DNA from: Shewanella benthica
Lineage (GTDB): Bacteria; Pseudomonadota; Gammaproteobacteria; Enterobacterales; Shewanellaceae
DNA length: 64,000 nucleotides
Assembly (NCBI GenBank): GCA_023284085.1
Contig: JAKVHY010000002.1
Coordinates: 62,001 to 126,000 of the forward strand
Direction: 5' to 3'
This document shows, in pieces, positions 15,365 through 38,166 of the stretch. Within the stretch, counting starts at the first letter, position 1. Each line of letters starts with the position of its first letter. Under the pieces are notes generated by a model. The model saw only the letters and a list, made by a program, of their open reading frames with translations, was not told where the DNA came from and did no database searches. The translations under genes were made by a program, and so were the position numbers.

Positions 15365-15940
15365 TTAAGGCGGCTCTCCCTCGATTAGCTCTGGTGCTCC
15401 AGGTCCCAGAGGCTGACCATAGCTGAACTCGATAAAGTTACCATCGGGATCTCTGACACCACAATAGTAGCCTGCAGGATAACTATCTTCCCGTACTCCC
15501 CAGACTAAAATCCCCTCTTCCTCCGCACGCATGGCAACCTTATCTACGGCGGCTTTACTCTCCAGTGCAAAACCTAAGTGGGAAAAATCATTCATCTGCT
15601 GCTTATGGCCTTCCCCTCCTGGGAGCATCACTATAATAAATTGCGACTCCTGTCCCGGCTCGCAGAGCCAGACGATACGCTTTGCTCCGCTTGGTCGCTC
15701 ATGGCTGTTATCACTTGGTCGCTCATGGCTGTTATCACTTGGTCGCTCATGGCTGTTATCACTTGGTCGCTCATGGCTGTTATCACTTGGTCGCTCATGG
15801 CTGTTATCACTTGGCCGTTCATGGCTGTTACCGCAAGGGCGTTCATGAACGACACGCATGCCAGCATAGGAGCAGTAAAAATCGACACAGGCTTCAAGGT
15901 CCATGACGTGCAAAGCGATATGGGTCAGTGCAATCGCCAT
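15365..15940 (-). CDS. VOC-superfamily protein with an in-frame octapeptide repeat
   Basis: A glyoxalase/bleomycin-resistance-like metalloprotein of 191 residues, about 50 longer than usual. The VOC fold is clear: N-terminal ALTHIALHVMDLEACVDFY, central NDFSHLGFALESKAAVDKV and C-terminal GYYCGVRDPDGNFIEFSYG, supplying the His, His and Glu metal positions. Between the first helix and second strand (about residues 32-84) lies the octapeptide HERPSDNS repeated five times exactly, preceded by the variant HERPCGNS and followed by HERPSGAK. The insertion keeps the frame, so the protein could still fold with a long hydrophilic loop. It follows the DUF393 gene after a short duplicated segment. Reaction unknown. 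Confidence 0.8.
   Translation of the reverse strand: MAIALTHIALHVMDLEACVDFYCSYAGMRVVHERPCGNSHERPSDNSHERPSDNSHERPSDNSHERPSDNSHERPSDNSHERPSGAKRIVWLCEPGQESQFIIVMLPGGEGHKQQMNDFSHLGFALESKAAVDKVAMRAEEEGILVWGVREDSYPAGYYCGVRDPDGNFIEFSYGQPLGPGAPELIEGEPP
15693..15850. repeat. 24-bp minisatellite within the VOC gene
   Basis: Five identical 24-bp units at 15693-15716, 15717-15740, 15741-15764, 15765-15788 and 15789-15812, then one diverged unit (15813-15836) and a partial seventh (15837-15850). Each unit encodes HERPSDNS on the minus strand. Because 24 is a multiple of three and the unit lacks stops, several frames on both strands stay open; only the VOC frame is flanked by family-conserved sequence. 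The five identical copies indicate recent expansion. Confidence 0.97.
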
Positions 15941-18436: not shown

Positions 18437-19050
18437 AGATATTTCAGCCCATATTTAAAGAATAAACAAGTAACCATGCCTCACCAAATCATTGCTGGCG
18501 AGATCATAAAAAACTCATTTTTATTACGGGTAAGATACAAATTAGCTTCATAATGAGCAACGTATTTTAGCCAGACTTTTGAAGCACTCAACAACAGGGA
18601 AAACATGTGCAAACTCAGTCCTGTTATGGAATTAATTCCAAATAGAGGAGTAGGTCAGAGATAAAAAAGGAATGAGATAAAAGATGCTGTGCAGCTTCAT
18701 CGCTCACGATTCTCTGAAATCAGTTACTTATGCTTCTACTAAGTGTTGCGATGTCTAATTGTTATTAATAAATATCTAGTCGCTAGTATTGGACACTTCT
18801 CAGTGAAAAAACTTAGGGTAAAAGTAACCAGAATGTCCTATCTTTAAATTCTGGCTTTACTAAAAATTCAACTTAGAGCCAGCTCAGCTGTAATTAAGAC
18901 CTATCAATATTGAACCAGCATCATTAATCCTTATGTTAAGCCTTCTCAAGGTTAACGGGTTCATTGCTCCACTTCGATATCTTCAAGATTGTTATGCGTT
19001 CATTTACTGTGACAAGGCCCTTGATCCAAAGGGTGAATAGGAGAAGTCTT
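18437..19050. other. Long intergenic region upstream of the broken MCP
   Basis: About 610 bases with AT-rich composition and many stops in all frames. It presumably contains the MCP promoter on the left and the small-ORF promoter on the right. The phrase CATTTACTGTGACAAG near 19000 recurs almost exactly near 19391 (CATTTACTTTGACAAG), another sign of local duplication. No RNA gene was recognised. Confidence 0.4.
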
Positions 19051-19254
19051 ATGGAAAAACTTAGAAAAGGTCCATTGACCATAGAGTTAGGCGGCAAGAA
19101 ATATCCTGAGTGGGTTGAAAATTCAGAAGGCTACTGGGACTTCCACCGTGCTTTTAGCAACAACAGATATTTTGACTCACCCAATAGCCAAATAGGACAA
19201 GATGAATGTGTCCTCTCTGAAGCAGGAATATATCGATTACGGATAATCCATTGA
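19051..19254 (+). CDS. Small hypothetical protein, 67 aa
   Basis: Starts MEKLRKGPLTIELGGKKYP, then EWVENSEGYWDFHRAFSNNRYF and ends AGIYRLRIIH. AATAGGAGAAG precedes the ATG at 19051. The frame also opens 29 codons earlier, but homology to a decayed copy at 21471 begins at the ribosome binding site and supports the shorter form. It is acidic/basic mixed and soluble with no recognised domain. Preservation of an open frame here while the second copy is broken suggests that this copy may be functional. Confidence 0.6.
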   Translation: MEKLRKGPLTIELGGKKYPEWVENSEGYWDFHRAFSNNRYFDSPNSQIGQDECVLSEAGIYRLRIIH

Positions 19255-21293: not shown

Positions 21294-21447
21294 TTAGAGA
21301 GATTGCGTCAGATCAGATGCCGTCATACTAACAGCTTTTATTTGTGCAAAAAGAGACACGCCCGGGCTTATCTCTAAGTCATCACAGGCCCAGCGTTTCA
21401 CATTGATCCATGAGTAATGGCCCGCAACTTCGAGTTTTATCTGATAT
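21294..21447 (-). pseudogene. 3' fragment of molybdate ABC ATPase gene modC (TOBE domain)
   Basis: The minus strand reads about 50 codons of open frame, starting near LYQIKLEVAGHYSWINVKRW and ending with LFAQIKAVSMTASDLTQSL and a stop at 21294. The SPGVSLFAQIKAV part matches the C-terminal TOBE domain of ModC, which binds molybdate-like ligands. There is no start codon, ATPase domain or upstream modAB. The fragment ends abruptly where the decayed copy of the small ORF begins (about 21450). It is a truncated remnant left 70 bases upstream of trmO. Confidence 0.7.
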
Positions 21448-21452
21448 AAAGA

Positions 21453-21605
21453 GGAAATAGGAGAAGTCTTATGAAAAACTTAGAAAAGGTCAATTTACCA
21501 TAGAGCTAGGCGACAACAAACACCATGAATTTATAGAAAAATCATAAGGTTACTGCGACCTTCCACCGTACTTTTAGCAACAACAGATATATTGATTCAC
21601 CCATT
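21453..21605 (+). pseudogene. Decayed copy of the small ORF at 19051
   Basis: From the ribosome binding site (AATAGGAGAAGTCTTATG) to about TTTTAGCAACAACAGATAT this stretch matches 19036-19190 closely. Small deletions shift the frame right after the start, and further stops follow. It is a non-coding duplicate about 2.4 kb from the intact copy, abutting the modC fragment. Confidence 0.8.
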
Positions 21606-24697: not shown

Positions 24698-27613
24698 ATG
24701 GAAAAAACATATAACCCGCAGTCTATAGAACAGTCTCTTTACCAAAGCTGGGAAGAGAAAGGTTACTTCAAGCCACATGGCGACGAGTCCAAAGGCAACT
24801 ATTGCATCATGATCCCGCCACCAAATGTGACAGGTAGTCTGCACATGGGTCACGCCTTCCAAGATACCATTATGGATACTCTGACTCGTTATCAGCGTAT
24901 GAAGGGCAAAAACACCCTTTGGCAGGTAGGTACAGATCATGCGGGTATTGCGACTCAGATGCTGGTTGAGCGTAAATTGGCAGCCGAAGAAGGCAAGACA
25001 CGTCACGATCTTGGCCGCGATAAGTTTATCGACAAGATCTGGGAGTGGAAGAAAGAATCCGGTGGCACCATCACTAAGCAGCTGCGTCGTCTCGGCGCTT
25101 CTGTTGATTGGGATCGCGAGCGTTTCACCATGGACGAAGGCATGTCTGAAGCGGTTCAGGAAGTGTTCGTTCGCTTGTATGAAGATGACCTAATCTACCG
25201 TGGTAAGCGCCTGGTCAACTGGGATCCGGCTCTTCACACTGCGATCTCAGATCTCGAAGTCGAGAGCAAAGAGAAACAAGGCAGCATGTGGCATTTCCGC
25301 TACCCGCTGGCCGATGGCGCATTGACTGCCGACGGTAAAGACTATTTAGAAGTGGCGACAACTCGTCCCGAAACCATGCTAGGTGACAGCGCAGTTGCGG
25401 TTCATCCCGATGATGAGCGTTATGCGTCCTTAGTCGGCAAGTTTATCCTGCTGCCAATCGTTAACCGTCTTATTCCTATTGTTGCCGACGATTATGTCGA
25501 CATTGAATTCGGTACCGGTTGTGTGAAGATAACGCCTGCTCACGACTTTAACGATTACGAAGTTGGTAAGCGTCATAACCTGCCTATGTACAACATCTTA
25601 ACTTTCGATGCGGCTATCCGTAGCTCAGCCGAAGTGGTTAACACCGATGGCACCAGCAATACCGAATTAGATAACAGCCTGCCCGAGCGTTATGCTGGTC
25701 TGGATCGTTTCAAGGCACGAACTGCCATCATCGCAGAATTCGACACCCTTGGACTACTCGGGGAGATAAAACCACACGCACTGAAAGTGCCTTATGGCGA
25801 TCGCTCTGGTGTGGTTATCGAGCCACTACTTACCGATCAATGGTATGTCTCTGTTGCCCCTATGGCTAAGACGGCCATGGAAGCGGTCGATAATGGCGAC
25901 ATCAAGTTCGTGCCGCAGCAGTACGAGAACATGTACAACTCTTGGATGCGCGATATTAACGATTGGTGTATCTCACGCCAACTTTGGTGGGGACACAGAA
26001 TCCCGGCCTGGTACGACGAAGCGGGTAAGGTCTATGTTGGCCGCGACGAAGCCGAAGTACGTGCTAAGTATAAGCTTGACGACTCGGTCGTGTTACGCCA
26101 AGACAACGATGTACTCGATACCTGGTTTAGCTCGGCACTTTGGACCTTCTCGACCCTTGGCTGGCCGAAGAACACCGAGGAGCTTAAAGCTTTCCACCCA
26201 ACCGATGTATTAGTCACTGGCTTCGACATCATCTTCTTCTGGGTTGCCCGCATGATCATGATGACCATGCACTTCATCAAAGATGAAAACGGCAAGCCAC
26301 AGGTTCCCTTTAAGACCGTTTACGTGACCGGACTCATTCGTGACGAAGTCGGTAATAAGATGTCTAAGTCTAAGGGCAACGTACTGGATCCGTTAGACAT
26401 GATTGACGGTATCGATCTTGAGTCACTGGTGACCAAGCGTACCGCTAACCTGATGCAGCCCAAACTTGCTGCAAAAATCGAGAAGAGCACACGTAAAGAA
26501 TTTGCCGATGGCATTGAAGCCCACGGTACCGACGCCCTGCGTTTCACTCTAGCCTCTATGGCATCCACAGGCCGTGATATCAGCTGGGACATGAAGCGTC
26601 TCGACGGTTACCGCAGCTTCTGTAACAAGATCTGGAACGCCTCACGCTATGTGTTGATGAACACAGAAGTGCAGTCAGAAGATCAAGACAGCAATGTCGC
26701 AGGCGAGCCATTAGATTGCGGTCAGATCTTAGTCGACGGCAAGCCGGGTGAAATGGAGCTGTCTCTGGCAGATCGCTGGATCATAGGTCTGTTTAACCAG
26801 ACGGTTAAATCCTTTGACGAACACATGGAGAACTACCGTTTCGACCTCGCGGCAAACACCATCTATGAGTTCACCTGGAACCAATTCTGTGACTGGTATT
26901 TAGAGCTGACAAAACCTGTGATGCAGACTGGAACCGAGGCTCAAAAGCGTGGCACCCGCCATACTCTAGTGACTGTACTAGAGGCGATGCAACGTCTGAT
27001 GCATCCTATAATGCCTTATATCACAGAGACTATCTGGAAGCGCGTACAGCCTCTGGCTGGCGTTACCGGCGATACTCTGATGTTGGCACCTTTCCCTGAA
27101 TATCAGGCTGACAAAGTCGATGCTCAGGCTATGGAAGATCTCGAGTGGGTTAAGCAGGTCATCACTGCGGTACGTAACATTCGCGCCGAACTGAACATTG
27201 CTCCATCTAAGCCGCTTAACGCCCTACTACGCGGCGTCAACGAGCAAGACAAGGCTCGTCTGGAAGAGAACCAAACCTTCTTCAAAACCTTGGCTAAGCT
27301 TGAGTCTATGACAATCCTCAGCGACGACGAGACAGCACCTATGTCTACCACTCAGTTGATTGGTGATATGGAGCTGCTTATCCCTATGGCGGGTCTTATC
27401 GATGTGGCTAAAGAAGTCGCGCGTATCGACAAGCTTCTCGAGAAGGCTGCCGGTGAGTTTAAGCGCATCGAAGGTAAGCTCTCTAACCAAGGCTTCGTGG
27501 CTAAAGCCCCGGCTGCCGTGATTGAGAAAGAGCGAGCTAAGCAAGTCGGATATCAACGCGATATCGACAAGCTAACTGAGCAGAAAGCAGAGCTGGCTAA
27601 GCTAGAAGGTTAA
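24698..27613 (+). CDS. valS: Valyl-tRNA synthetase
   Basis: A 971-residue class I aminoacyl-tRNA synthetase that charges tRNA-Val. It has the HMGH signature in [18 protein letters not shown], the CP1 editing domain ([20 protein letters not shown]), KMSKSKGN, an anticodon-binding region, and a C-terminal coiled coil ending [21 protein letters not shown]. Full length for the family. About 30 of its 3'-terminal codons are found again in degraded form at 31194. Confidence 0.98.
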
Positions 27614-27673
27614 AAGAAGTGTCGAGTTCCTAGAAGCGAGAGCCTAGGAACAAGCATTTTTGACTAACACTAG

Positions 27674-27723: not shown

Positions 27724-29310
27724 TTAATATTTACGGCGAACGATGACCCCAGTGGCCAACAATAATCCCCAAAGATAGTGCAAGGCACCGCCTGAAGATG
27801 ACGTATCTTCAGTAGGCGGCGTAACCTCTGGATCTGTGGGTGGTGTTGTCACTATTTTATCATTGACCGTAAGCACGACAGTCTGTGTCACCGTCTCTCC
27901 CTTCATATCTGTGACTGTCAGGCTGAAACTGATGCTTTCTGCGCCTGTCACTTGCGGTGCGGTAAACTCAAGCTGTGGCTTGGTAGTATCGGTAATCGTT
28001 ACCGTGCTACCCGCAATTTGTTGCCACAAATAACTGGCATCGACACCGTTACTGGCACTTTTCAAACTGACCTTATTGCCTTCGTAGACCACTGATACAG
28101 CCATAATGCTTAATGTCAGCGGCTTATCTTTGATAGACAAGATCACAGTATCATTTGCAGTTGAGCCAAAGCTGTCGGTCATTGTGACTTTAAAACCAAG
28201 CTCGCTGTCGGCATCGACTTCAGGGGCCACAAAATTGAGGCTGGCCGTATTCAACTGAGCTATGGTTACTGGCGCGCCACTGATCTGTTGCCATAAGAAA
28301 CTTACCCCATCGATGTTACTCTGGGCGACTATGTTTACCGCCTCACCTTCCTTAACAGGGGTGATAGCCGCAATGGTTACCACGGGCGTGATAATAGCAG
28401 AGCCACAGACATCTTTATAAACGATCTCGGTCCACTCAGGATGATCGATATACGGATTACGGTTGCCTTGATACTCAAAGATGCTGTTATTTCTGTCACG
28501 TTCGAAATTATCAACAGGGTCAACTGCATGCCACTCGAGTAAGGTACACAGCTTACCCATCTCACCGGCACTAGTTAACGAGCTAGAGGTGCTGGTGCCA
28601 ACTCGATCAACCAGCAGCAGATCCGGCATATCATCGTCACTGCCTACTTCATAGCGGGTATCCATATAGAACATCATGCGAGCAACGTCACCCTTGACCG
28701 CATCTCTTGGTTCCCAAGAAAGGGCGCCATTCTTGAGGTTATCTGGCGCCTCACTGACCGCACTGCCACCAATATCGAAATCATTATTGCCACGGGCGCT
28801 ATTCATCGACATATCAGATGGGCGCAGGTGATGAATATCGGTATAACCATGCTGACTCTTACCCGGGAAACCATGACTCTTGGCCCAGACATGTTCTCGG
28901 TTCCAGTAATCTTGATCATTTACGCCTGAGGCATTGTGATTCTTAGGGATCGAGTTGCCCTTATAAATTAAGATGACATTGCTTGAGTTGTTAGGATCTT
29001 CATCGGTATAGGTCAGTGCCGTCCATACTTCGGAGTATGTTAATTGTTTATGTTCCGCTGAAATATCTTGACTCAAAGCGGTCTTAAATCCACTGATATC
29101 CAGATTATCAGCAGCATGAGTATTGGCGTAGTACAAGCTGTCATCGAAATTTTCCCTATCTGCAATTTTACTGATATCGGGACAGTTGGTACAGATAGCT
29201 TTATTGACAGTCGCACTGGCTAACAACTTGGCATCGACTGGCGACACCTCATCGGCATAAACATTAATTGCGGAGAAACACACTAAAACAGGTAGAATTA
29301 TTTTTATCAT
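27724..29310 (-). CDS. Extracellular endonuclease I with Ig-like repeats and GlyGly-CTERM anchor
   Basis: A 528-residue exported nuclease. The signal peptide MIKIILPVLVCFSAINVYAD is followed by a CTNC pair and the endonuclease I domain (about 45-300). Its beta-beta-alpha-metal site is seen in NREHVWAKSHGFP (His near 140), DIHHLRPSD and NSARGNNDFD. Two Ig/PKD-like repeats of about 85 residues follow, each with a SFLWQQI/SYLWQQI core. The C terminus SSGGALHYLWGLLLATGVIVRRKY has the Gly-Gly, hydrophobic helix and basic tail of a rhombosortase substrate, usually released by the type II system. AAGGTG before the ATG at 29310 supports this start. It probably degrades external DNA for nutrient use. 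Confidence 0.9.
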   Translation of the reverse strand: MIKIILPVLVCFSAINVYADEVSPVDAKLLASATVNKAICTNCPDISKIADRENFDDSLYYANTHAADNLDISGFKTALSQDISAEHKQLTYSEVWTALTYTDEDPNNSSNVILIYKGNSIPKNHNASGVNDQDYWNREHVWAKSHGFPGKSQHGYTDIHHLRPSDMSMNSARGNNDFDIGGSAVSEAPDNLKNGALSWEPRDAVKGDVARMMFYMDTRYEVGSDDDMPDLLLVDRVGTSTSSSLTSAGEMGKLCTLLEWHAVDPVDNFERDRNNSIFEYQGNRNPYIDHPEWTEIVYKDVCGSAIITPVVTIAAITPVKEGEAVNIVAQSNIDGVSFLWQQISGAPVTIAQLNTASLNFVAPEVDADSELGFKVTMTDSFGSTANDTVILSIKDKPLTLSIMAVSVVYEGNKVSLKSASNGVDASYLWQQIAGSTVTITDTTKPQLEFTAPQVTGAESISFSLTVTDMKGETVTQTVVLTVNDKIVTTPPTDPEVTPPTEDTSSSGGALHYLWGLLLATGVIVRRKY

Positions 29311-29985
29311 ATCAACACCTTTAAACACGCCTTACATTTAACTCCCGATTAAAACACAGATGGGCAACAAGTGGTTAACCAATAGAATGATTATCGTGAT
29401 TAAGATCTCATATGGCTAATTAGCACTATAAAATATAATTAAACATTGAATAAATATTAGATCAAACAAAGCATAAACAGTTAAAACATAATCAAGTAAA
29501 ATCAAACTATTACACAAAAACCAGCTAAGAGAAAACTCACAAACCTGCACTCTAAATCAAACATAAGCCTTAATAAAAAATAATCGAAACCAATATGACG
29601 AATACTATTAGACCAATTATGAGAATACTCTAATGATATTTAAAGGCTATTAAACTCTACGCATAATTTATAATAACAAGATAAATTAAAACCATTTAAA
29701 ATAACACACTTGTCCTTATTAGATTTATTCGTTCAATCAACAACACTCCGTTTTAATAACAACATAATAACCCCCTCCAGCAAACCCACAGAAATAGTGA
29801 CAAGGTCCATCTGGCAGGTAGGAGGTTTAGCTAAAATCGAGATCACTTTATTGATTTAAGAACAATCATTTTAATTATGCCGATAACAATAACTGCGGCC
29901 ATTACGGCAATATAACTGAGAGCCTACCAGAGCTATTGGCGTTCTACATGAAGAACAGTGCCCTTCGATAATGAACCTAAACTCA
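29311..29985. other. Long AT-rich intergenic region
   Basis: About 675 bases, very AT-rich between 29340 and 29760, with no gene-length frame. At 29843-29902 the minus strand has a 19-codon frame MAAVIVIGIIKMIVLKSIK, which could be a tiny membrane peptide or the end of a lost membrane protein; it lacks a ribosome binding site. No repeat or RNA gene was recognised. Confidence 0.45.
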
Positions 29986-31137
29986 CTAACCCATGAAGAT
30001 GGGGATCCGCTGACGACCGAAATGCTCACAGGGGCCATCGAAACGTCCCGGTATTTGGGTACCGCAATATTGGCACTTGCCGCTATGATTGAGGTGATAC
30101 TCGCCTAACTCATACCAGTCTCGATTGATGACCAACTTATGACATGAGGGGCAGTAACTGCTGCCGCCATCTGTGTCATGAATATTGCCGGTATAGACAT
30201 AGTTAAGCCCCTGAGCCAGGGCAATTTCTCTGGCCCGCATCAGAGTCGATGCAGGGGTTCTGGGCTTATCTAACATATGAAAGTCGGGATGAAAGGCACT
30301 GAAATGCAGTGGCACATCATGACCTAAGTTATCGGCTATCCACTTGGTTTGTTGCTCCAGTTCTTTGACTGAATCATTTTCATCGGGGATCAAGAGTGTA
30401 GTTATCTCGAACCATACCTGGGTCTCATGCTTAAGGTAGAGCAAGGTATCGAGTACATCGCTAAGATTTCCGCTGCATATCTTGTGATAGAAGTCTTGAG
30501 TGAAACCTTTCAGATCCACATTAGCCGCGTCCATATAGCGATAAAACTCGACCCTGGGTTCGGGGCAGATATAACCAGCTGTCACCGCTACCGAGTTGAT
30601 CCCCTGCTCATGGCAGGCCTGAGCCACATCAATGGCGTACTCGAGGAAGATAACCGGATCGTTATAGGTGAAGGCGATGCTCCTGCAGCCCATACGTTTG
30701 GCCGTTGACGCCAATGATTCCGGACTGGCTTTCGAGCCTAAGGTATCGAACTCACGTGACTTACTGATGTCCCAGTTCTGACAGAACTTGCAGCAGAGAT
30801 TGCAGCCTGCGGTGCCAAAAGAAAGTACAGAACTGCCGGGATAGAAATGATTCAGCGGTTTCTTCTCTATGGGATCGATACAGAAGCCACTGGAGCGACC
30901 ATAGCTGGTGAGCTTTATCTCATTATCTATGTTTTGGCGCACGAAGCAGACACCGCGCTTGCCCTCACGCAGCTGACAATGTCTGGGACATAAATCGCAT
31001 TGCACCCTACCGTCGTCCAGACGATGCCAGTACTTAGTTTTTACGGTACTCGACTCTGCAATATTAGTCTGTCCAGTATTGCTATTAACCAGATTCATTT
31101 CACCTATATTGGTACTCGATTTAGACATCATCAGCAT
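29986..31137 (-). CDS. amrS: AmmeMemoRadiSam system radical SAM enzyme
   Basis: A 383-residue radical SAM protein. CxxxCxxC iron-sulfur cysteines are in GTAGCNLCCKFCQNWDISKS. The N-terminal CDLCPRHCQLREGKRGVCFVR and the C-terminal YCPSCHKLVINRDWY ... CQYCGTQIPGRFDGPCEHFG cysteine sets are typical of AmrS. It forms with AmrB (MEMO-like) and AmrA (AMMECR1-like) the three-part AmmeMemoRadiSam system, whose substrate is not established. The three are normally neighbours; here amrB and amrA are 2.5 kb away, beyond an inserted MCP gene. The first 30 residues are Ser/Thr/Asn-rich and the exact start is uncertain. Confidence 0.92.
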   Translation of the reverse strand: MLMMSKSSTNIGEMNLVNSNTGQTNIAESSTVKTKYWHRLDDGRVQCDLCPRHCQLREGKRGVCFVRQNIDNEIKLTSYGRSSGFCIDPIEKKPLNHFYPGSSVLSFGTAGCNLCCKFCQNWDISKSREFDTLGSKASPESLASTAKRMGCRSIAFTYNDPVIFLEYAIDVAQACHEQGINSVAVTAGYICPEPRVEFYRYMDAANVDLKGFTQDFYHKICSGNLSDVLDTLLYLKHETQVWFEITTLLIPDENDSVKELEQQTKWIADNLGHDVPLHFSAFHPDFHMLDKPRTPASTLMRAREIALAQGLNYVYTGNIHDTDGGSSYCPSCHKLVINRDWYELGEYHLNHSGKCQYCGTQIPGRFDGPCEHFGRQRIPIFMG

Positions 31138-31171
31138 GTGTCCGGCTTGGCCTATACTTAAAGCCTAGTTT
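31091..31171. repeat. 81-bp direct repeat, copy 1
   Basis: Identical base for base to 33523-33603. It contains the first 15 or so codons of amrS and its upstream promoter region. A weaker match continues for another 20-25 bases (GGTATCAG) up to the point where amrB starts in copy 2. Confidence 0.95.
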
Positions 31172-31193
31172 AAAAAGCTTGGGTCAGGTATCA

Positions 31194-31265
31194 GCAAGCT
31201 GGATATCTGCGCGATATCGAAAAGCTAACCGAACAGAGAACAGAAAGCAGGAAGGTTAAAAGAAG
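31194..31265 (+). pseudogene. Degraded duplicate of the valS 3' end
   Basis: The stretch from GCAAGCTGGATATC to GAAGGTTAAAAGAAG matches the end of valS (27541-27620) with about 85 percent identity and one small deletion, and still encodes the motif GYLRDIEKLTEQ. Weaker similarity (GTGTCGAGT) continues downstream, followed by a hairpin terminator similar in place to the valS terminator. It begins exactly where copy 1 of the 81-bp repeat fades out. Confidence 0.85.
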
Positions 31266-31356
31266 CTATAAGTCTTAAGCTGTAAGCTCAAGATAGAGCT
31301 AAGAAAGCTAAATGCAGTGTCGAGTCACGAGTATAACTTGCTCCCCCCGACCAAAG

Positions 31357-31386
31357 AGAAAGGCAGTCATTAGACTGCCTTTTTGT
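31357..31386 (+). terminator. Hairpin terminator after the valS fragment
   Basis: AAGGCAGTC/GACTGCCTT with loop ATTA and following TTTTG. It sits about 90 bases past the valS-like stop codon, as in the real valS locus (60 bases), and probably came with the fragment. It may also terminate readthrough from any plus-strand promoter in copy 1. Confidence 0.75.
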
Positions 31387-31629
31387 TACCTGCAGCGAAA
31401 TAAGCAACTGGCAAGGGGGTTAAATCTATAGAACCTATGTAGGTGTTGGACCTATGTAAGACTGGCTTTAGCCGGGAGGTTCTTTACTCAAAGCGTAAAT
31501 CCCAGAAATCCTCTCCTTCTATCTATCGCAGCTAAAGCAGCTCCTACCTGGAGCTGGCTTTGACTTGCCACTTAGAACTTACTGCTTACCACTTTTCTTT
31601 TTAGCTCTCGGTTGACACTATGCCTAGGC
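31387..31629. repeat. REP-like inverted elements downstream of the MCP
   Basis: GACTGGCTTTAGCCGGGAGG near 31460-31479 and CGCAGCTAAAGCAGCTCCTACC near 31527-31548 are two short palindromic units in opposite orientation, resembling REP/BIME elements of the type AGGAGCTGCTTTAGCTGCGA. ACCTATGTA also occurs twice just left of them. The region holds no gene. Confidence 0.5.
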
Positions 31630-33360
31630 TTAACTTATCCGGTAACGCTCAACCTCTAGCCGCATAGACTCTGCCAGACTGGCAAGCTCACGAGTAGCAA
31701 CGTTACTCTGCTCCGCACCAGCGGCGGTCTGATCGGAAATATCACTGATATTGATGATATTTTGATTTACCTCCTCGGTAACCGCGCTCTGCTGCTCGGA
31801 AGCGGTGGCGATTTGGGCATTCATGGCATTGATCTGCTCGACGCTGGCGATTATTTGTCGCAGGACATCACCTGCCTGCCGAGATTTTGCCACGCTCATC
31901 TGTGCCTGCTCGGTGCCACGCTCCATCATCACCATGGAGTCCCGGCTCCCTTGTTGTATACGTTGAATCATCAGCTGTATCTCTTCGGTGGCATCCTGAG
32001 TTCGTTTGGCCAAGGTGCGAACCTCATCCGCCACCACGGCAAAACCCCGTCCCTGCTCGCCGGCACGGGCTGCCTCTATCGCGGCATTGAGCGCCAATAG
32101 ATTGGTCTGCTCTGAGATCCCTTGGATCACATCCACTACGCCGCCAATTTCATCGGAATGACGCCCCAGAAGTTTCATCGACTCAGTTACCTGTTCCATT
32201 TCCTGAGATAAAGTCTCGATCATGCAGATGCTCTCCCCCACCACCGACTGGCCTTTAACGGCGGCAACATCGGCCTCCCTAGAGGCAATTTCAGCCGCTG
32301 CGGCGCTTTGGGCAACCTCTCTCACCGTCGCGGTCAACTCATTGATCGCCGTGGCAATCAATTGCGTCTGCTGTTGTTGTTCGACCACATTTCGCTGAGT
32401 CTGGGTCGACACTACGGAGTTTTCTTCGGCCGAACTGGCTAACTTAACCGTCGACAGGAGGGTGTTTTCGATCGCCTGTTGGAATCCCGCCGCAATTTTA
32501 TCGACCGTAGCGGCAATATGGGCAAACTCATCGTCTCCCCCCAGCTCGATACGCCGGGTCAGATCGCCGTTCGCGATAGCATCGGCGGTATTTTCCAGTT
32601 GCGTGACAGCATGATTCATCCGTCTGATGATAAGCGTCGAGCCCAAGGTAGTAACCAGAATACTGACACCAGAAAATAGCAGTACTAACAGGGTGAAAGC
32701 GGCAAGATTCTCTTGGGAGCGGGTAAACATTCCTTCGCCCTCCGTTATCTGCAATGCCTGAAATGCTTCGGCGCCGGCCCCAATCTTGGCAAACAGGGGA
32801 TTAATCTGTGTCAGAAATATCCGCTCCGAGTCTTCATAGTCCCCATCCTGCAGCGCTGCCAGCGCGGGCATGAATCCTGTCGTGGTGATGCCATCAAGGC
32901 GCGTGGCCAGGCGTTCGATCAGCACTTTTTCTTCGGCTTCTAAGGAGCCGGTAAGCAGTTTTTCATCGACGATATAATGCAGCGAGTCAAGAGACACTTG
33001 CACCGTCAGCACGTGTCTATCTAGCGTGTGGTCATGTAACGCCGCAGATTTAGTACTAGGATCATGCTGAAAAGCCAGCAGTAATTCACCACGGGCATTG
33101 CCCAACTCGTCAAGAACCTTACCGATATTGATACTATGCTGCATGCCCTGGGTGTATAGGTCCTCGATGGAAGCTCCCGCCTCCTCCATGCCGGAAATGC
33201 CCTTGTATCCTAAAAAAACGAATGCAATAACCGTCAACAGGGCTATCCCTTGCAGCTGGAACCTGATCGACTTAATCCGCCGTAGCGAACCGGAAGTTTG
33301 CTGGTGAGCAACGACGCCAGCATCGACCCTCTCTCCCTGAATAGCTAAGCCAACTGACAT
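31630..33360 (-). CDS. Methyl-accepting chemotaxis protein, four-helix-bundle sensor
   Basis: A 576-residue MCP. A cytoplasmic lead of about 45 residues precedes the first membrane segment ([17 protein letters not shown]), then a helical periplasmic sensor (about 70-220) of the 4HB type, a second membrane segment ([17 protein letters not shown]), HAMP ([28 protein letters not shown]) and a full signalling domain with [22 protein letters not shown] at the tip. The ATG at 33360 is preferred over a frame opening 32 codons earlier because AAAGGAAA precedes it. It lies in a block between amrS and amrB flanked by an 81-bp direct repeat, so its location is recent and its ligand need not relate to the amr genes. 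Confidence 0.92.
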
Positions 33361-33522
33361 ACAAATTTCCTTTATATTGTTATTATGAAAGCGCCTAACA
33401 TATAGATAAATGTTAACCCGTTTATTGACCGCGATCCCACAGGCAACTGGATGCACTTTTAATACCTATAAATGAGTACTTGTTCACATTTAACTAACGA
33501 GATTAACAGTGGAATACTAACA

Positions 33523-33603
33523 AGATTCATTTCACCTATATTGGTACTCGATTTAGACATCATCAGCATGTGTCCGGCTTGGCCTATACTTAAAGCCTAG
33601 TTT
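33523..33603. repeat. 81-bp direct repeat, copy 2, with amrS 5' stub
   Basis: Identical to 31091-31171. On the minus strand it still holds the first codons of amrS (ATG near 33569), now followed by unrelated sequence, so this is a truncated stub. The plus-strand side leads directly to amrB and is the original amrB promoter and ribosome binding site. Confidence 0.95.
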
Positions 33604-33625
33604 TAAAAGTCTGGCTAGGTATCAG

Positions 33626-34438
33626 ATGCTAAGTTCTATTCGCCCTCCCGCCGTCGCCGGGCTGTTTTATCCGGCAGATCCTATGGTGCTATCCGCTGAG
33701 CTAGCCAGCTATATGGATCTGGCTCAGACACCGCGAGATCAAATATCCAATACGATAGCTAAGGCGATTATCGTGCCTCATGCGGGTTATATTTACTCAG
33801 GGCTGGTGGCAGCTCATGGCTTTTCTCACATCGAGAACAACAAACATAAAATTGAACGCGTGGTCTTACTCGGTCCCGCCCATACCCTTTATCTGCAAGG
33901 CTGCGCCATCCCCACAAGCACCCATTTCTCCACGCCCCTGGGCAACTTGCCCATAGACCCTTCTGGCGCTGCAAAGTTGGCTGCATATGATGCCGTCACC
34001 ATCTCCAACATTCCCCATCGAGAGGAGCACAGCCTGGAAGTCGAACTGCCCTTCCTGCAGCATTGCCTGGATGAATTTGAGATCCTCCCCATCCTAGTGG
34101 GTGACATCGCCCCCGAGCCGATGGCCGAACTGTTGGAGTTAGTCTGGGGTGGAGAGGAAACCTTGATTGTTGTCAGCTCAGATCTAAGCCACTTTCATCC
34201 CTATGATGTAGCTAAGCGATTAGACCGGGAAACTTGCCAGAAAATCCTGGCCAATAACAGCGACATATCTTCCGAGCAAGCCTGCGGTTGCCGCTCACTT
34301 AATGCGCTTTCTCTGCAGCTTATACGTCATAATCTCAACATCACTCAGCTGAGTTATCAAAACTCGGGTGACTGTGCCACTCGCTATGCGGCTGACAAAA
34401 ATCGAGTGGTCGGCTATGCCAGCTTTGCCATCAGTTAA
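33626..34438 (+). CDS. amrB: AmmeMemoRadiSam system protein B, MEMO1 family
   Basis: A 270-residue MEMO-like protein related to class III extradiol dioxygenases. It begins SSIRPPAVAGLFYPADP and has AIIVPHAGYIYSGLVAAHGF, VVLLGPAHTLYLQGCA and LIVVSSDLSHFHPYDVAKRLD, giving the conserved His residues of the family. Archaeal and eukaryotic members are of debated enzymatic role. AGGT lies just before the ATG. It overlaps amrA by 23 bases and was presumably divergent from amrS before an insertion. Confidence 0.92.
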   Translation: MLSSIRPPAVAGLFYPADPMVLSAELASYMDLAQTPRDQISNTIAKAIIVPHAGYIYSGLVAAHGFSHIENNKHKIERVVLLGPAHTLYLQGCAIPTSTHFSTPLGNLPIDPSGAAKLAAYDAVTISNIPHREEHSLEVELPFLQHCLDEFEILPILVGDIAPEPMAELLELVWGGEETLIVVSSDLSHFHPYDVAKRLDRETCQKILANNSDISSEQACGCRSLNALSLQLIRHNLNITQLSYQNSGDCATRYAADKNRVVGYASFAIS

Positions 34439-35015
34439 CCTGACCGAGTCCGAGAAACGTCAATTGTTAGCACTGGCGCGTAGCACCTTAGTCGATTCAT
34501 TTACCTCAGATCCAGCGGCCAAGCTCCCCCTGACTTCACACCATAAACTCTCCGATGAAGCCGTTATCGAGTTGAAGTTAGGCTGCTTCGTTACCCTGAC
34601 ACTCGATGGTGAGTTAAGAGGCTGTATGGGCTGCATAGAAGGTGATCGAACTCTGGCTAACAGCATCCCGGATCTGGCCACCAGCAGCGCCTTCTACGAT
34701 CGCCGCTTCTCACCTCTGCAGGAGCCTCAGTTGAGTCGAGTCTCGATAGAAATATCGCTACTCTCACCTCTTACCCCCTTAAACGTTAGCAGCCAGGTTC
34801 AGCTTGAGGAATACTTAGCGCGGGATCACTATGGCCTAGTGCTTAAAGAAGATGGATTAAGAGCCGTGTTTCTTCCTCAGGTCTGGGAGCATTTTTCTGG
34901 CCCTAAAGCTTTTATCCATGCCCTGAAAGTTAAGGGCGGCTGGCCCGAAAATTATTGGTCAGACAAGATAGAAGTTGAGCTATTTAAGGTTATCCACTTC
35001 AGCGAAAACAGATAA
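34416..35015 (+). CDS. amrA: AmmeMemoRadiSam system protein A, AMMECR1 domain
   Basis: A 199-residue AMMECR1-domain protein. It contains KLGCFVTLTLDGELRGCMGCIEGDRTLANSI, the family-defining LRGCMGC motif, and DLATSSAFYDRRFSPLQ. The frame opens at 34368, but the ATG at 34416 gives the usual N terminus and overlaps the amrB end by only 23 bases. It is probably translationally coupled to amrB. Function is unknown; it is the third part of the AmmeMemoRadiSam set. Confidence 0.9.
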   Translation: MPALPSVNLTESEKRQLLALARSTLVDSFTSDPAAKLPLTSHHKLSDEAVIELKLGCFVTLTLDGELRGCMGCIEGDRTLANSIPDLATSSAFYDRRFSPLQEPQLSRVSIEISLLSPLTPLNVSSQVQLEEYLARDHYGLVLKEDGLRAVFLPQVWEHFSGPKAFIHALKVKGGWPENYWSDKIEVELFKVIHFSENR

Positions 35016-35172: not shown

Positions 35173-38166
35173 ATGAAATGGCTCATTCCTGGTTGTTTGC
35201 TAATAAGCTTAGTTGGATGTGGAGGCGGCAGTGATGACAGCTCTTCCGCGACAGATGGGGGCTCAGGTGATAATAACGGTGGTGGAACGCCACCAGCTTC
35301 ACTGCAAGCGCCCGATGTGGAAGTGGGGGAAAACCTGATAAGTTGGAATCATCAAGATATCAGCATCTCAGCTCAGGTCACGCTTTATGCCGAAGGTAAT
35401 GCCAAGTACCTATGGAATGTGATCAGTGGCCCACAAATCACTCTCTCGGGTGCCAACACGAGCACTGTCAGTATAGATGCATCATCACTTCAACTAGATA
35501 CGGATCTGGTGTTTGATCTACAGCTGACCGTCACCGACGGCGCAGGAAAGACTAGCCAAGATAGCCTCACCATCACATTAAAAGATCAGATAACGGCTGC
35601 CATAAAAATTGGCGATCCAGCATTAATCGATGGCTTACAAGGTCGAGTTATAACCAGAGCGCTGAACATTATTCAGCAGTATCGTGACGATAATGCCGCG
35701 ATGTTAGCCTCAGTCTATCAGGGCAATGATATCGTCTATGACTCGGGTCAACACTCACAGATGATCCGCCTCAATCAAGCAGTTCATAGCTATCCGCAGG
35801 TAAAAAGCTTCGAGCTTATCCGTGGTAATGGTGGCCGAATCTTTGCCGCGGCCAGCGATAAATCGGGGCAGAGGAATGCCGCATTTGGCACCGACATCAT
35901 CAGTAGCATGCAGCAAGGCAACAACTTAGCTTATCAGCAGAACTTTAAGCAGCTACTGGCATGGTTACTGGATAAGGAGCAGATCCAAGATCAGGCTGAA
36001 GATGTTCGCCTGTTTCTAATGGCTGGCAACACAGTCAATCGTATCACCAGCTGGATATCGACCCAATACCCGAACTGGAGTGTCACTTTATGTGATGATG
36101 AAGCGACGCAGACATCCTGCCTGGAAGCTGGCAGCCTCATCATCACAGGTTCCAGCGGCGGCCTGAGTGAACAAAGTGTTAGCTCACTGCTCATGAGTGC
36201 TCAGTTGCAAGGCACACCTCTGCTCTATATGCATCTTCATAGCTGGAACAGCGTGCCGCTCACCCAGACAGTGCTCAACCTGATGGACTTTTCCATGCAG
36301 GGAGCTGGCGGACCGGGGAACTTCTTCTCCCCGGATCAGGCGAGCTGGTCAAACTATACTGAGATGCTAACGGCCAAACCTTCGTTAACGGCGGAGCACC
36401 TATGGTTAAGTCTGTTCGATAGCCAGAATCCTGGTTTCAACTTAGCCAGGTGTGCCGATAAATGTGATGCCCTATTCGATGAGCAATACAGGCCGGCACT
36501 GAGTCATATTCGCGCTCAGCTGCAGTCGCTGGACACTCAGCATCTGGATATGTTCGAGCAAGAAGATCATCGACTCTATAAACTGCTCACCCTTCTCGGT
36601 GACAGCTACCGTAGTCAGCTCAAATACCCTATGGATGTCACGACTACTGATGACATGGATTTCCTTAAGGCCATGTTTGCCGATAATACGGTTTACCACT
36701 ATCGCAATATCAACCCGGTACCGAACGACTTAGGTAACTTCAGCCGCAGTGACTTTTCCCATATCACCCCAACGAACAAATCGATAACTCTGAGCAGTAA
36801 AAAAGGATTTCGCTCCGCCGGTGTCTATGCGCTTCCCGGTCAAACGGTGACAGTGAGCAGAACCGATAGCAATGACGTCAGAAGCTGGATTTTTATCAAT
36901 ACCCAAAGATCTGGGTCTACCCATGAATTTGATAACCAAGGCTATAACCGGGCTAAATATCTGCAATCGACCCATATCGAGTTAAAGCCGGGACAAAGCA
37001 TCAAGTTCACCTCGCCCTATGGCGGACCCATGCAAGTTAAATTCGACAAGAGCGATATAGAGACCAAGCTCAGCTTTAGCCATATAGGTCTTCACCCTTA
37101 CTGGCGTGAAGGCATGGACGGCGCTCAATTTATGCAGCAATTAACCCAGGCTAATTTTGATTGGGCCGAACTGGCGACACCGCATTTTGAAGTCCACTCT
37201 CGACTGGATAAGATGCAGGCCACCATGTCCCATGAAACGCTATGGGATACCCCGGAGAAGATGGGGCAGGCGATAATGACCCATGTGCATAATTACCCCC
37301 ATGTGTTAGCCGGATTCAAGGGACCCTTTATCGATGAAGTTAGCGAAATCACAGATTTTGCCGTCGCTCAGGGATGGGAAATAAATAATCTCGATACGGT
37401 AAAACATATGAACGCCGATCAAGCGACCTGTGGTTCTGGTTGCTCGGGTAACCCCTATGATGCCAGCTGGTCATTTAGCCCAACCGGACACGGGGATATT
37501 CACGAGCTTGGCCATGGCCTGGAGAAGGGCCGCCTTAGATTCGATGGCCATGAAGGTCATGCATCGACCAACCCCTACTCTTACTACACGAAATCTCGTG
37601 CCTATGTGGAGAGCGGTAAACTGCCATCGTGTCAGGGCTTGTCCATTGAAGATGAGTTTGAGGTACTGCAAGCCAGCATGAAGCAAGCCGATCCGTTCAA
37701 ATATATGCAAGATGCTAAGCTCACCAGTTGGTCGAACGGCATGGCGACTATGCTGCAGATGATGGTTGCGGCGCAAAAATACGGCGCATTGGAAGATGGT
37801 TGGCACTTACTGGCCAGATTACATATCTTGCTGCGCGAGTTTGAACGTGCCAAAGCCAATGAAGATATCTGGCTGGGAAAACGTGCGAGTCTTGGCTTCA
37901 GTGGTTATAGCTTAGATACCGCTAAAGCTATCTCCAATAATGACTTCTTATTAATCGCCATGAGTTATTCAACAAGATTGGATTATCGTGATTTGTATCA
38001 AATGTGGGGACTTGCGACCACTCAGGGCGCCAACGATCAAGTTGCAGGATTTAACTACACCAGTATAGCGAGGCAAGTATATGTTTATGCCCCGGGAAAT
38101 TATTGTCTCGGACTCGACCTTCAAGCTGTGGCAGTGGATGGCAATCAAACCTGGCCGCTAAACTAG
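35173..38166 (+). CDS. IMPa-like zinc metallopeptidase lipoprotein
   Basis: A 997-residue lipoprotein: the signal MKWLIPGCLLISLVGC has lipobox LVGC and is followed by a Gly/Ser/Asp linker. Then come an Ig/PKD-like domain (about 50-145), an ImpA N-terminal-like region (about 150-450, with RGNGGRIFAAASDKSGQRNAAFGTD), a beta-rich domain (about 530-640) and the catalytic domain with zinc motif HELGH at 777-781 in HGDIHELGHGLEKGRLRFDG. Pseudomonas IMPa, an M60-like peptidase, cleaves next to O-glycosylated residues of mucin-type proteins, so a glycoprotein substrate is a fair inference. It stands alone behind amrA with 157 bases between them. Confidence 0.8.
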   Translation: MKWLIPGCLLISLVGCGGGSDDSSSATDGGSGDNNGGGTPPASLQAPDVEVGENLISWNHQDISISAQVTLYAEGNAKYLWNVISGPQITLSGANTSTVSIDASSLQLDTDLVFDLQLTVTDGAGKTSQDSLTITLKDQITAAIKIGDPALIDGLQGRVITRALNIIQQYRDDNAAMLASVYQGNDIVYDSGQHSQMIRLNQAVHSYPQVKSFELIRGNGGRIFAAASDKSGQRNAAFGTDIISSMQQGNNLAYQQNFKQLLAWLLDKEQIQDQAEDVRLFLMAGNTVNRITSWISTQYPNWSVTLCDDEATQTSCLEAGSLIITGSSGGLSEQSVSSLLMSAQLQGTPLLYMHLHSWNSVPLTQTVLNLMDFSMQGAGGPGNFFSPDQASWSNYTEMLTAKPSLTAEHLWLSLFDSQNPGFNLARCADKCDALFDEQYRPALSHIRAQLQSLDTQHLDMFEQEDHRLYKLLTLLGDSYRSQLKYPMDVTTTDDMDFLKAMFADNTVYHYRNINPVPNDLGNFSRSDFSHITPTNKSITLSSKKGFRSAGVYALPGQTVTVSRTDSNDVRSWIFINTQRSGSTHEFDNQGYNRAKYLQSTHIELKPGQSIKFTSPYGGPMQVKFDKSDIETKLSFSHIGLHPYWREGMDGAQFMQQLTQANFDWAELATPHFEVHSRLDKMQATMSHETLWDTPEKMGQAIMTHVHNYPHVLAGFKGPFIDEVSEITDFAVAQGWEINNLDTVKHMNADQATCGSGCSGNPYDASWSFSPTGHGDIHELGHGLEKGRLRFDGHEGHASTNPYSYYTKSRAYVESGKLPSCQGLSIEDEFEVLQASMKQADPFKYMQDAKLTSWSNGMATMLQMMVAAQKYGALEDGWHLLARLHILLREFERAKANEDIWLGKRASLGFSGYSLDTAKAISNNDFLLIAMSYSTRLDYRDLYQMWGLATTQGANDQVAGFNYTSIARQVYVYAPGNYCLGLDLQAVAVDGNQTWPLN

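Follow-up and report, generated by a model that had tools for sequence, protein, structure and literature searches.

How did a gene for a methyl-accepting chemotaxis protein (MCP) come to lie between amrS and amrB in Shewanella benthica, with the same 81 bases on either side of it? The question is raised by a 64,000-nucleotide stretch of contig JAKVHY010000002.1 (hereafter the window), in which the block holding the MCP gene is bounded by an exact direct repeat made of the start of amrS and the adjoining divergent promoter region. A sequence-only reading of the window had described this repeat, a dead amrS stub at its second copy and a tail of valS inside the block, and had seen no transposase; the repeat, stub and tail were borne out, and the MCP gene is the sole long open reading frame (ORF) in the block. 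We favor the explanation that in a few deep-sea Shewanella the MCP gene reached its place through segmental duplication followed by asymmetric loss, with the order of amrS and the MCP gene swapped as a result, and we assign this a probability of roughly 0.65. The ancestor would have had the order valS(+)-MCP(-)-amrS(-)-promoter-amrB(+), and a segment of about 6 kb, starting near codon 949 of valS and ending directly ahead of the amrB start, would have been doubled head to tail across a joint that shares just two bases. Copy 1 would then have lost the MCP gene and kept amrS, and copy 2 would have lost amrS and kept the MCP gene, its putative promoter still serving amrB. The ends of the second copy would persist as the valS tail with its terminator and as the amrS stub, and the 81-bp repeat would represent the divergent promoter region kept by both copies and homogenized later by gene conversion. 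We infer the origin of the second copy within the chromosome, the former presence of an MCP gene in copy 1 and the order of the losses.

The locus was compared across the genus, in which 129 genomes were searched and amrS was matched in full in 31 (E below 1e-150), namely the window's genome and 30 others; the other amrS matches were one at 2.8e-10, which is a relic discussed below, and eight partial matches with E above 1e-6 and 22-28% identity. The MCP gene lies on the amrB side of amrS in 4/31: the window's genome, S. benthica KT99 (G014), Shewanella abyssi DSM 17171 (G001) and the metagenome-assembled genome (MAG) Shewanella sp. DT_112 (G094). In all four, the amrB leader, ending in ATCAG, is joined to the CAAGCTG of valS, and the 12-base string across this junction occurs once per locus in each of them and in 0/27 other loci. 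We read a duplication because this joint of amrB leader to valS tail has the form that head-to-tail duplication demands of its inner junction. The present native sequences have only AG in common at the joint, and the left breakpoint of the duplicated unit falls at approximately 27542, in codon 949 or so of the 971 of valS. On the simplest reading of these sequences, a junction common to four genomes would reflect a single old event.

Relics of both neighbors persist at the edges of the block. The left edge (31193-31387) aligns with the valS end and downstream DNA of a relative without the block, G072, over 199 columns at 72% identity (E 1.6e-22), and its first part (31193-31265) matches the valS end of another, G123, at 80.7% (E 1.2e-17). 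The valS tail of the window's genome and of G014 continues past its stop codon into a probable copy of the valS terminator (31340-31395 folds at -19.3 kcal/mol, z -5.5); the tail is shortened in S. abyssi, where the terminator is kept, and the relic is deleted shortly after the joint in G094. At the right edge, the amrS stub is present in three genomes, and in G094 amrS residues 322-383 are fused to the amrS start beside amrB (tblastn E 1.4e-9; 2.8e-10), so that the start and the end of a second, dead amrS are both kept. A tree from a short alignment (about 180-220 bp) places this relic among the amrS sequences of the clade itself, sister to that of G014 (support 89) and on a long branch.

The proposed starting order is found in the outgroups. 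An orthologous MCP gene lies on the opposite, valS side of amrS in 11/31 loci, with valS visible in order in nine; six of the 11 also have an M60-type gene there (G116, G065, G038, G100, G107, G080), three have two MCP genes (G081, G015, G010) and two are on short contigs (G117, G091). Starting from valS-MCP-amrS-amrB, duplication of the unit and deletion of the MCP gene from its first copy and of amrS from its second would yield the present order together with both relics. In the other 16 loci an MCP of this kind was seen on neither side of amrS; seven of these have amrS beside valS (G072, G073, G123, G027, G085, G125, G061), and in nine amrS was not seen beside valS (G043, G051, G039, G078, G009, G056, G019, G104, G127), the contig of G104 beginning 0.7 kb from amrS such that one side is unseen.

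The repeat itself had been taken as the sign of a recent event, on the grounds that its copies are identical. They are the best-kept part of a wider repeat (31083-31194 and 33515-33625; 112 columns, 93.75%, E 1.9e-41), the last base of which, in copy 2, directly precedes the amrB ATG. Among non-tandem exact direct repeats in the window the 81-bp pair is the longest, the next being 20 bp; the sole longer exact repeat, of 101 bp at 15690/15714, is part of a short-period tandem array. The copies differ at 0/81 positions in the window's genome, 6/81 in S. abyssi and 14/81 in MAG DT_112, and only copy 1 is present in G014. S. abyssi and DT_112 thus hold the MCP gene at the same place between diverged repeats, an arrangement that the sequence-only reading had itself regarded as the mark of an old event, and the synonymous divergence (dS) of the MCP gene from the window's is 0.15-0.74. 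Since the repeat has diverged in relatives and four genomes have the same junction, a recent event is rejected. The earlier suggestion of some other insertion or duplication mechanism holds for duplication; insertion at a target site is at odds with the common junction and the relics. Gene conversion long after the duplication best accounts for the identity of the window's copies; we infer it because both copies share a base, at tract site 6, that is absent from all 10 other rows compared, in addition to their 0/81 differences. The two S. abyssi copies likewise have in common a base, at site 60, that is absent from 10 other rows, and the G094 copies have no private base in common.

These observations also bear on the proposal that an MCP-bearing element inserted recently and duplicated an 81-bp target, to which we give next to no credence. 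The exact repeat is what such an insertion would leave; the same junction in four genomes, the MCP dS of up to 0.74 and the divergence of the repeats in two of the three genomes keeping both copies speak against it, and it leaves the valS and amrS relics unexplained in a block whose sole long ORF is the MCP gene. No transposase or integrase was found in the ORF list of the block, the small ORFs of which were not searched against families. A search of the window's genome with 31000-33700 turned up no other site with matching ends, the matches being MCP-domain, valS and short-motif sequences only. A target-site duplication by a mobile element was accordingly rejected on the basis of the common junction, the lack of recurring ends and the single long ORF.

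Several results weigh against duplication and loss. The seven valS-linked relatives without the block also have no MCP gene between valS and amrS; with the sisters lacking it, only more distant outgroups supply the order before duplication, and several losses have to be assumed. Five of these sisters were searched whole (G072, G073, G123, G027, G085), and their best MCP match was partial and only 42-43% identical, thus the gene is absent there; MCP matches below 40% identity, not entered in the gene orders above, occur once each in G081, G127, G085, G073, G027 and G072, and all lie beyond amrA, outside these intervals. No MCP relic was recognizable in the valS-amrS intervals of the four block-bearing and seven sister genomes, in a search whose controls, a whole MCP gene and a 300-bp piece of one, were both found. 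The window's own genome has no relic of the amrS 3' end, the full duplication, with the whole unit present twice, is kept in 0/31 loci, and the brevity of the valS relic prevents its placement, with 39-45 of 53 positions identical to the valS of each lineage. Finally, the conversion signature consists of one site per genome plus the 0/81 identity.

The rearranged block has, as its divergence and phylogeny indicate, moved horizontally into S. abyssi. Between S. abyssi and the window's genome dS is 1.28 in valS, 0.34 in amrS and 0.14 in amrB, and S. abyssi is distant from the others in the three-gene and valS trees while its amrS and amrB group with the block-bearing clade. In 400-bp steps, its identity to the block clade is 79-86% in valS and rises to 89-95% in amrS, and its identity to the G116 group is 79-92% in valS and falls to 71-82% in amrS; past amrA the block clade is no longer matched. 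A vertical topology for the S. abyssi amrS was rejected in the approximately unbiased (AU) test (p about 0.001), and a topology that places S. abyssi next to G094, with G073 inside, was not rejected (AU 0.054). The middle of the S. abyssi MCP gene is 75-82% identical to that of the block clade, and the first of three steps there is equally near that of the G116 group, so the gene may be a mosaic.

This mobility raises the possibility, which we consider unlikely yet worth weighing, that the second copy was imported, with a related-Shewanella fragment (valS tail-MCP-amrS-promoter) integrating beside the resident amrS by crossing over homologously at its promoter/amrB end and joining illegitimately at the opposite end. 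Subsequent loss of the redundant amrS would leave the same relics. The block is demonstrably mobile, as the dS contrast, the AU result and the switch of identity from valS to amrS in S. abyssi attest, and with close sisters lacking a valS-side MCP gene an early loss and regain takes fewer steps on the tree. The G094 amrS relic, lying inside the clade's own amrS, would require the donor to be a near relative, and in the MCP tree a close MCP occurs in no sampled genome outside the four.

The placement of G073 relative to the block-bearing genomes varies with the data used. A three-gene tree of 22 genomes groups G073 more closely with the window's genome (support 74), a five-gene tree of nine genomes favors the block-bearing clade (support 55; AU 0.81 vs 0.19), and single-gene trees are mutually inconsistent on G073 vs G094. 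The AU tests used 5000 resamplings, where the program advises 10000. The trees exclude the nine genomes with amrS not seen beside valS; the valS tree is without G117 and G091, for which complete valS is missing from the contig fetched, and the amrB tree is without G014, in which amrB is gone, and G091, whose contig ends in amrS. In the uvrA alignment G073 is represented by a 578-aa piece with a broken frame. In G073, whose genome is a single contig, uvrA (L277) reads as two pieces broken by stops, reflecting either sequencing error or a real break.

A further alternative is that the MCP gene alone was moved by an unknown cut-and-paste process, and that the valS tail and amrS stub came from separate small duplications. 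Relics of the valS tail in G091, G027 and, weakly, G085 indicate that small duplications are not rare here; several independent events would nonetheless have to yield both segment ends in the correct order and orientation, and we regard this account as quite improbable.

Returning to segmental duplication and loss, the repeat that it left offers a possible way back. Removal of the MCP gene through recombination between the repeat copies is plausible, and a relative possibly did so: in G123, which lacks the MCP gene here, the amrB leader resembles, by eye, copy 1 at its left and copy 2 at its right. This leader fits loss of the block via the repeats and fits equally an unduplicated, near-ancestral allele. 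The full sequence of events, that is, a completed change of order by duplication and loss that is provable from its scars, reversible through a conversion-kept promoter repeat, reverted in the sister G123 and spread horizontally, is something that we propose only tentatively and consider doubtful as a whole.

A duplication-loss route to new bacterial gene order is proposed in two papers (PMC7055797, PMC8046335) on the SNAP (Selection during Niche AdaPtation) model. As set out there by Brandis and Hughes (2020; PMC7055797), SNAP likewise creates a new order through duplication and asymmetric loss, with selection for dosage or niche adaptation maintaining the duplication; its units are of tens to hundreds of genes, in contrast to about 6 kb here, and it starts from recombination of direct repeats, in contrast to a joint with two shared bases. 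The same source holds that after completion no feature unique to SNAP remains, unlike this locus, where relics of both ends persist, and that rearrangements due to it had yet to be documented by direct empirical evidence (PMC7055797). Tandem duplication-random loss in mitochondrial genomes similarly changes order by head-to-tail duplication and loss; the present case differs in lying on a bacterial chromosome, in the promoter region having been kept alike probably by conversion, and in the horizontal spread of the product. Composite transposons and target-site duplications also place direct repeats around a block, but here no transposase-sized ORF exists besides the MCP gene, the repeat consists of a gene start with its promoter region, and the inner ends of the block are a valS tail and an amrS start. 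Among the listed open-licence titles and starts of abstracts we found no obvious case with such scars, which is not proof of absence. The reordering of neighboring genes in bacteria is mostly inferred, and this locus suggests that its trace can persist, with the tail of one neighbor on one side of the moved gene and the head of a second neighbor on the opposite side. Such a scar pattern is searchable in all genomes, which makes the question testable, and the locus also carries the warning that identical repeats need not imply a recent event.

Features of the valS-amrA region, in coordinates of the window
Feature	Coordinates	Strand	Basis or remark
valS (valine--tRNA ligase)	24698..27613	+	NCBIfam valS
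amrS, retained copy (AmmeMemoRadiSam system radical SAM enzyme)	29986..31137	-	TIGR04337, 649.5 bits
Exact 81-bp direct repeat, copy 1	31091..31171	.	First amrS codons and divergent promoter region
Duplication junction	31190..31201	.	amrB leader (to ~31194) and valS codon ~949; shared AG
Decayed valS 3' end (pseudogene relic)	31193..31265	+	77.5% to 27540-27619, E 4.8e-11
Probable copy of valS intrinsic terminator	31354..31387	+	Inverted repeat, stem with T-rich tail
MCP gene (TarH, HAMP, MCPsignal; Pfam)	31630..33360	-	576 aa, ATG at 33360
amrS stub	33459..33569	-	~16 amrS start codons, then unrelated to stop; 36 codons
Exact 81-bp direct repeat, copy 2	33523..33603	.	On amrB side of MCP gene; wider homology to 33625
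amrB (Memo-like)	33626..34438	+	TIGR04336, 256 bits
amrA (AMMECR1)	34368..35015	+	TIGR04335, 170 bits; program-made ORF opens at GTG inside amrB

The program-made ORF of the MCP gene opens at a GTG at 33456. Relatives of this MCP adjoin amrS in 14 other genomes at 62-93% identity, and the next best MCP of the window's genome is 38% identical over residues 162-575. The ratio of nonsynonymous to synonymous divergence (dN/dS) is 0.14-0.25 in three pairs, thus the MCP gene is a kept gene. The region upstream of it appears, by eye, to be conserved independently among the block-bearing genomes. A scan of 31000-33700 with the sigma-70 consensus gave one site, inside the MCP gene, which is fewer than in shuffled sequences and speaks neither for nor against capture of the MCP gene by the duplicated amrS promoter. 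In the linker to the left of the MCP gene, short stretches near 31522-31557 that resemble repetitive extragenic palindromic (REP) elements recur in G027, G014, G001 and G015 (93-100% over 23-34 bp) and, from this recurrence, are likely a dispersed short motif; three REP-like motif cores that were tried each occur once in the window, all within this linker.

In the amrS-amrB intergenic sequence, CTATACTTAAAGCCTAGT (31152-31169 and 33584-33601) is unchanged or nearly so in 17 other aligned genomes. With up to two mismatches allowed, this promoter core occurs in the window's genome only in the two repeat copies, and a role as a regulon motif was ruled out by the lack of further copies at that threshold.

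Pieces of valS also occur at other loci. In G091 (L072, G091:C148) a piece encoding residues 894-971 lies at 1596-1829 between two tandem MCP genes, and a short valS-tail piece adjoins amrS in G027, with a further, weak instance in G085. The junction string of the block is not present at these three loci, which suggests other duplications ending in valS, that of G091 being apparently independent. The valS-amrS intervals of G027 (L058) and G085 (L059) hold an ORF for a protein of 143 and 135 aa, respectively, with an Asn/Gly repeat.

The G014 genome has lost amrB, and its locus contains neither amrA nor the M60-type gene; an ORF near the break beyond the MCP gene is one that we take to resemble an insertion sequence (IS) transposase. 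An IMPa/M60-like protease-type gene lies 3' of amrA in the window (35173-38166), and a relative of it sits between the MCP gene and amrS in six outgroup genomes, thus the M60-type gene also changed place. Between valS and amrS, the window carries a gene (27724-29328) for an endonuclease I-like protein that includes a PKD domain; among the 31 loci, this gene is present only in the window's. Elsewhere in the window, another direct repeat (19022-19183 and 21442-21603; 163 columns, 83%) lies around approximately 2.2 kb.

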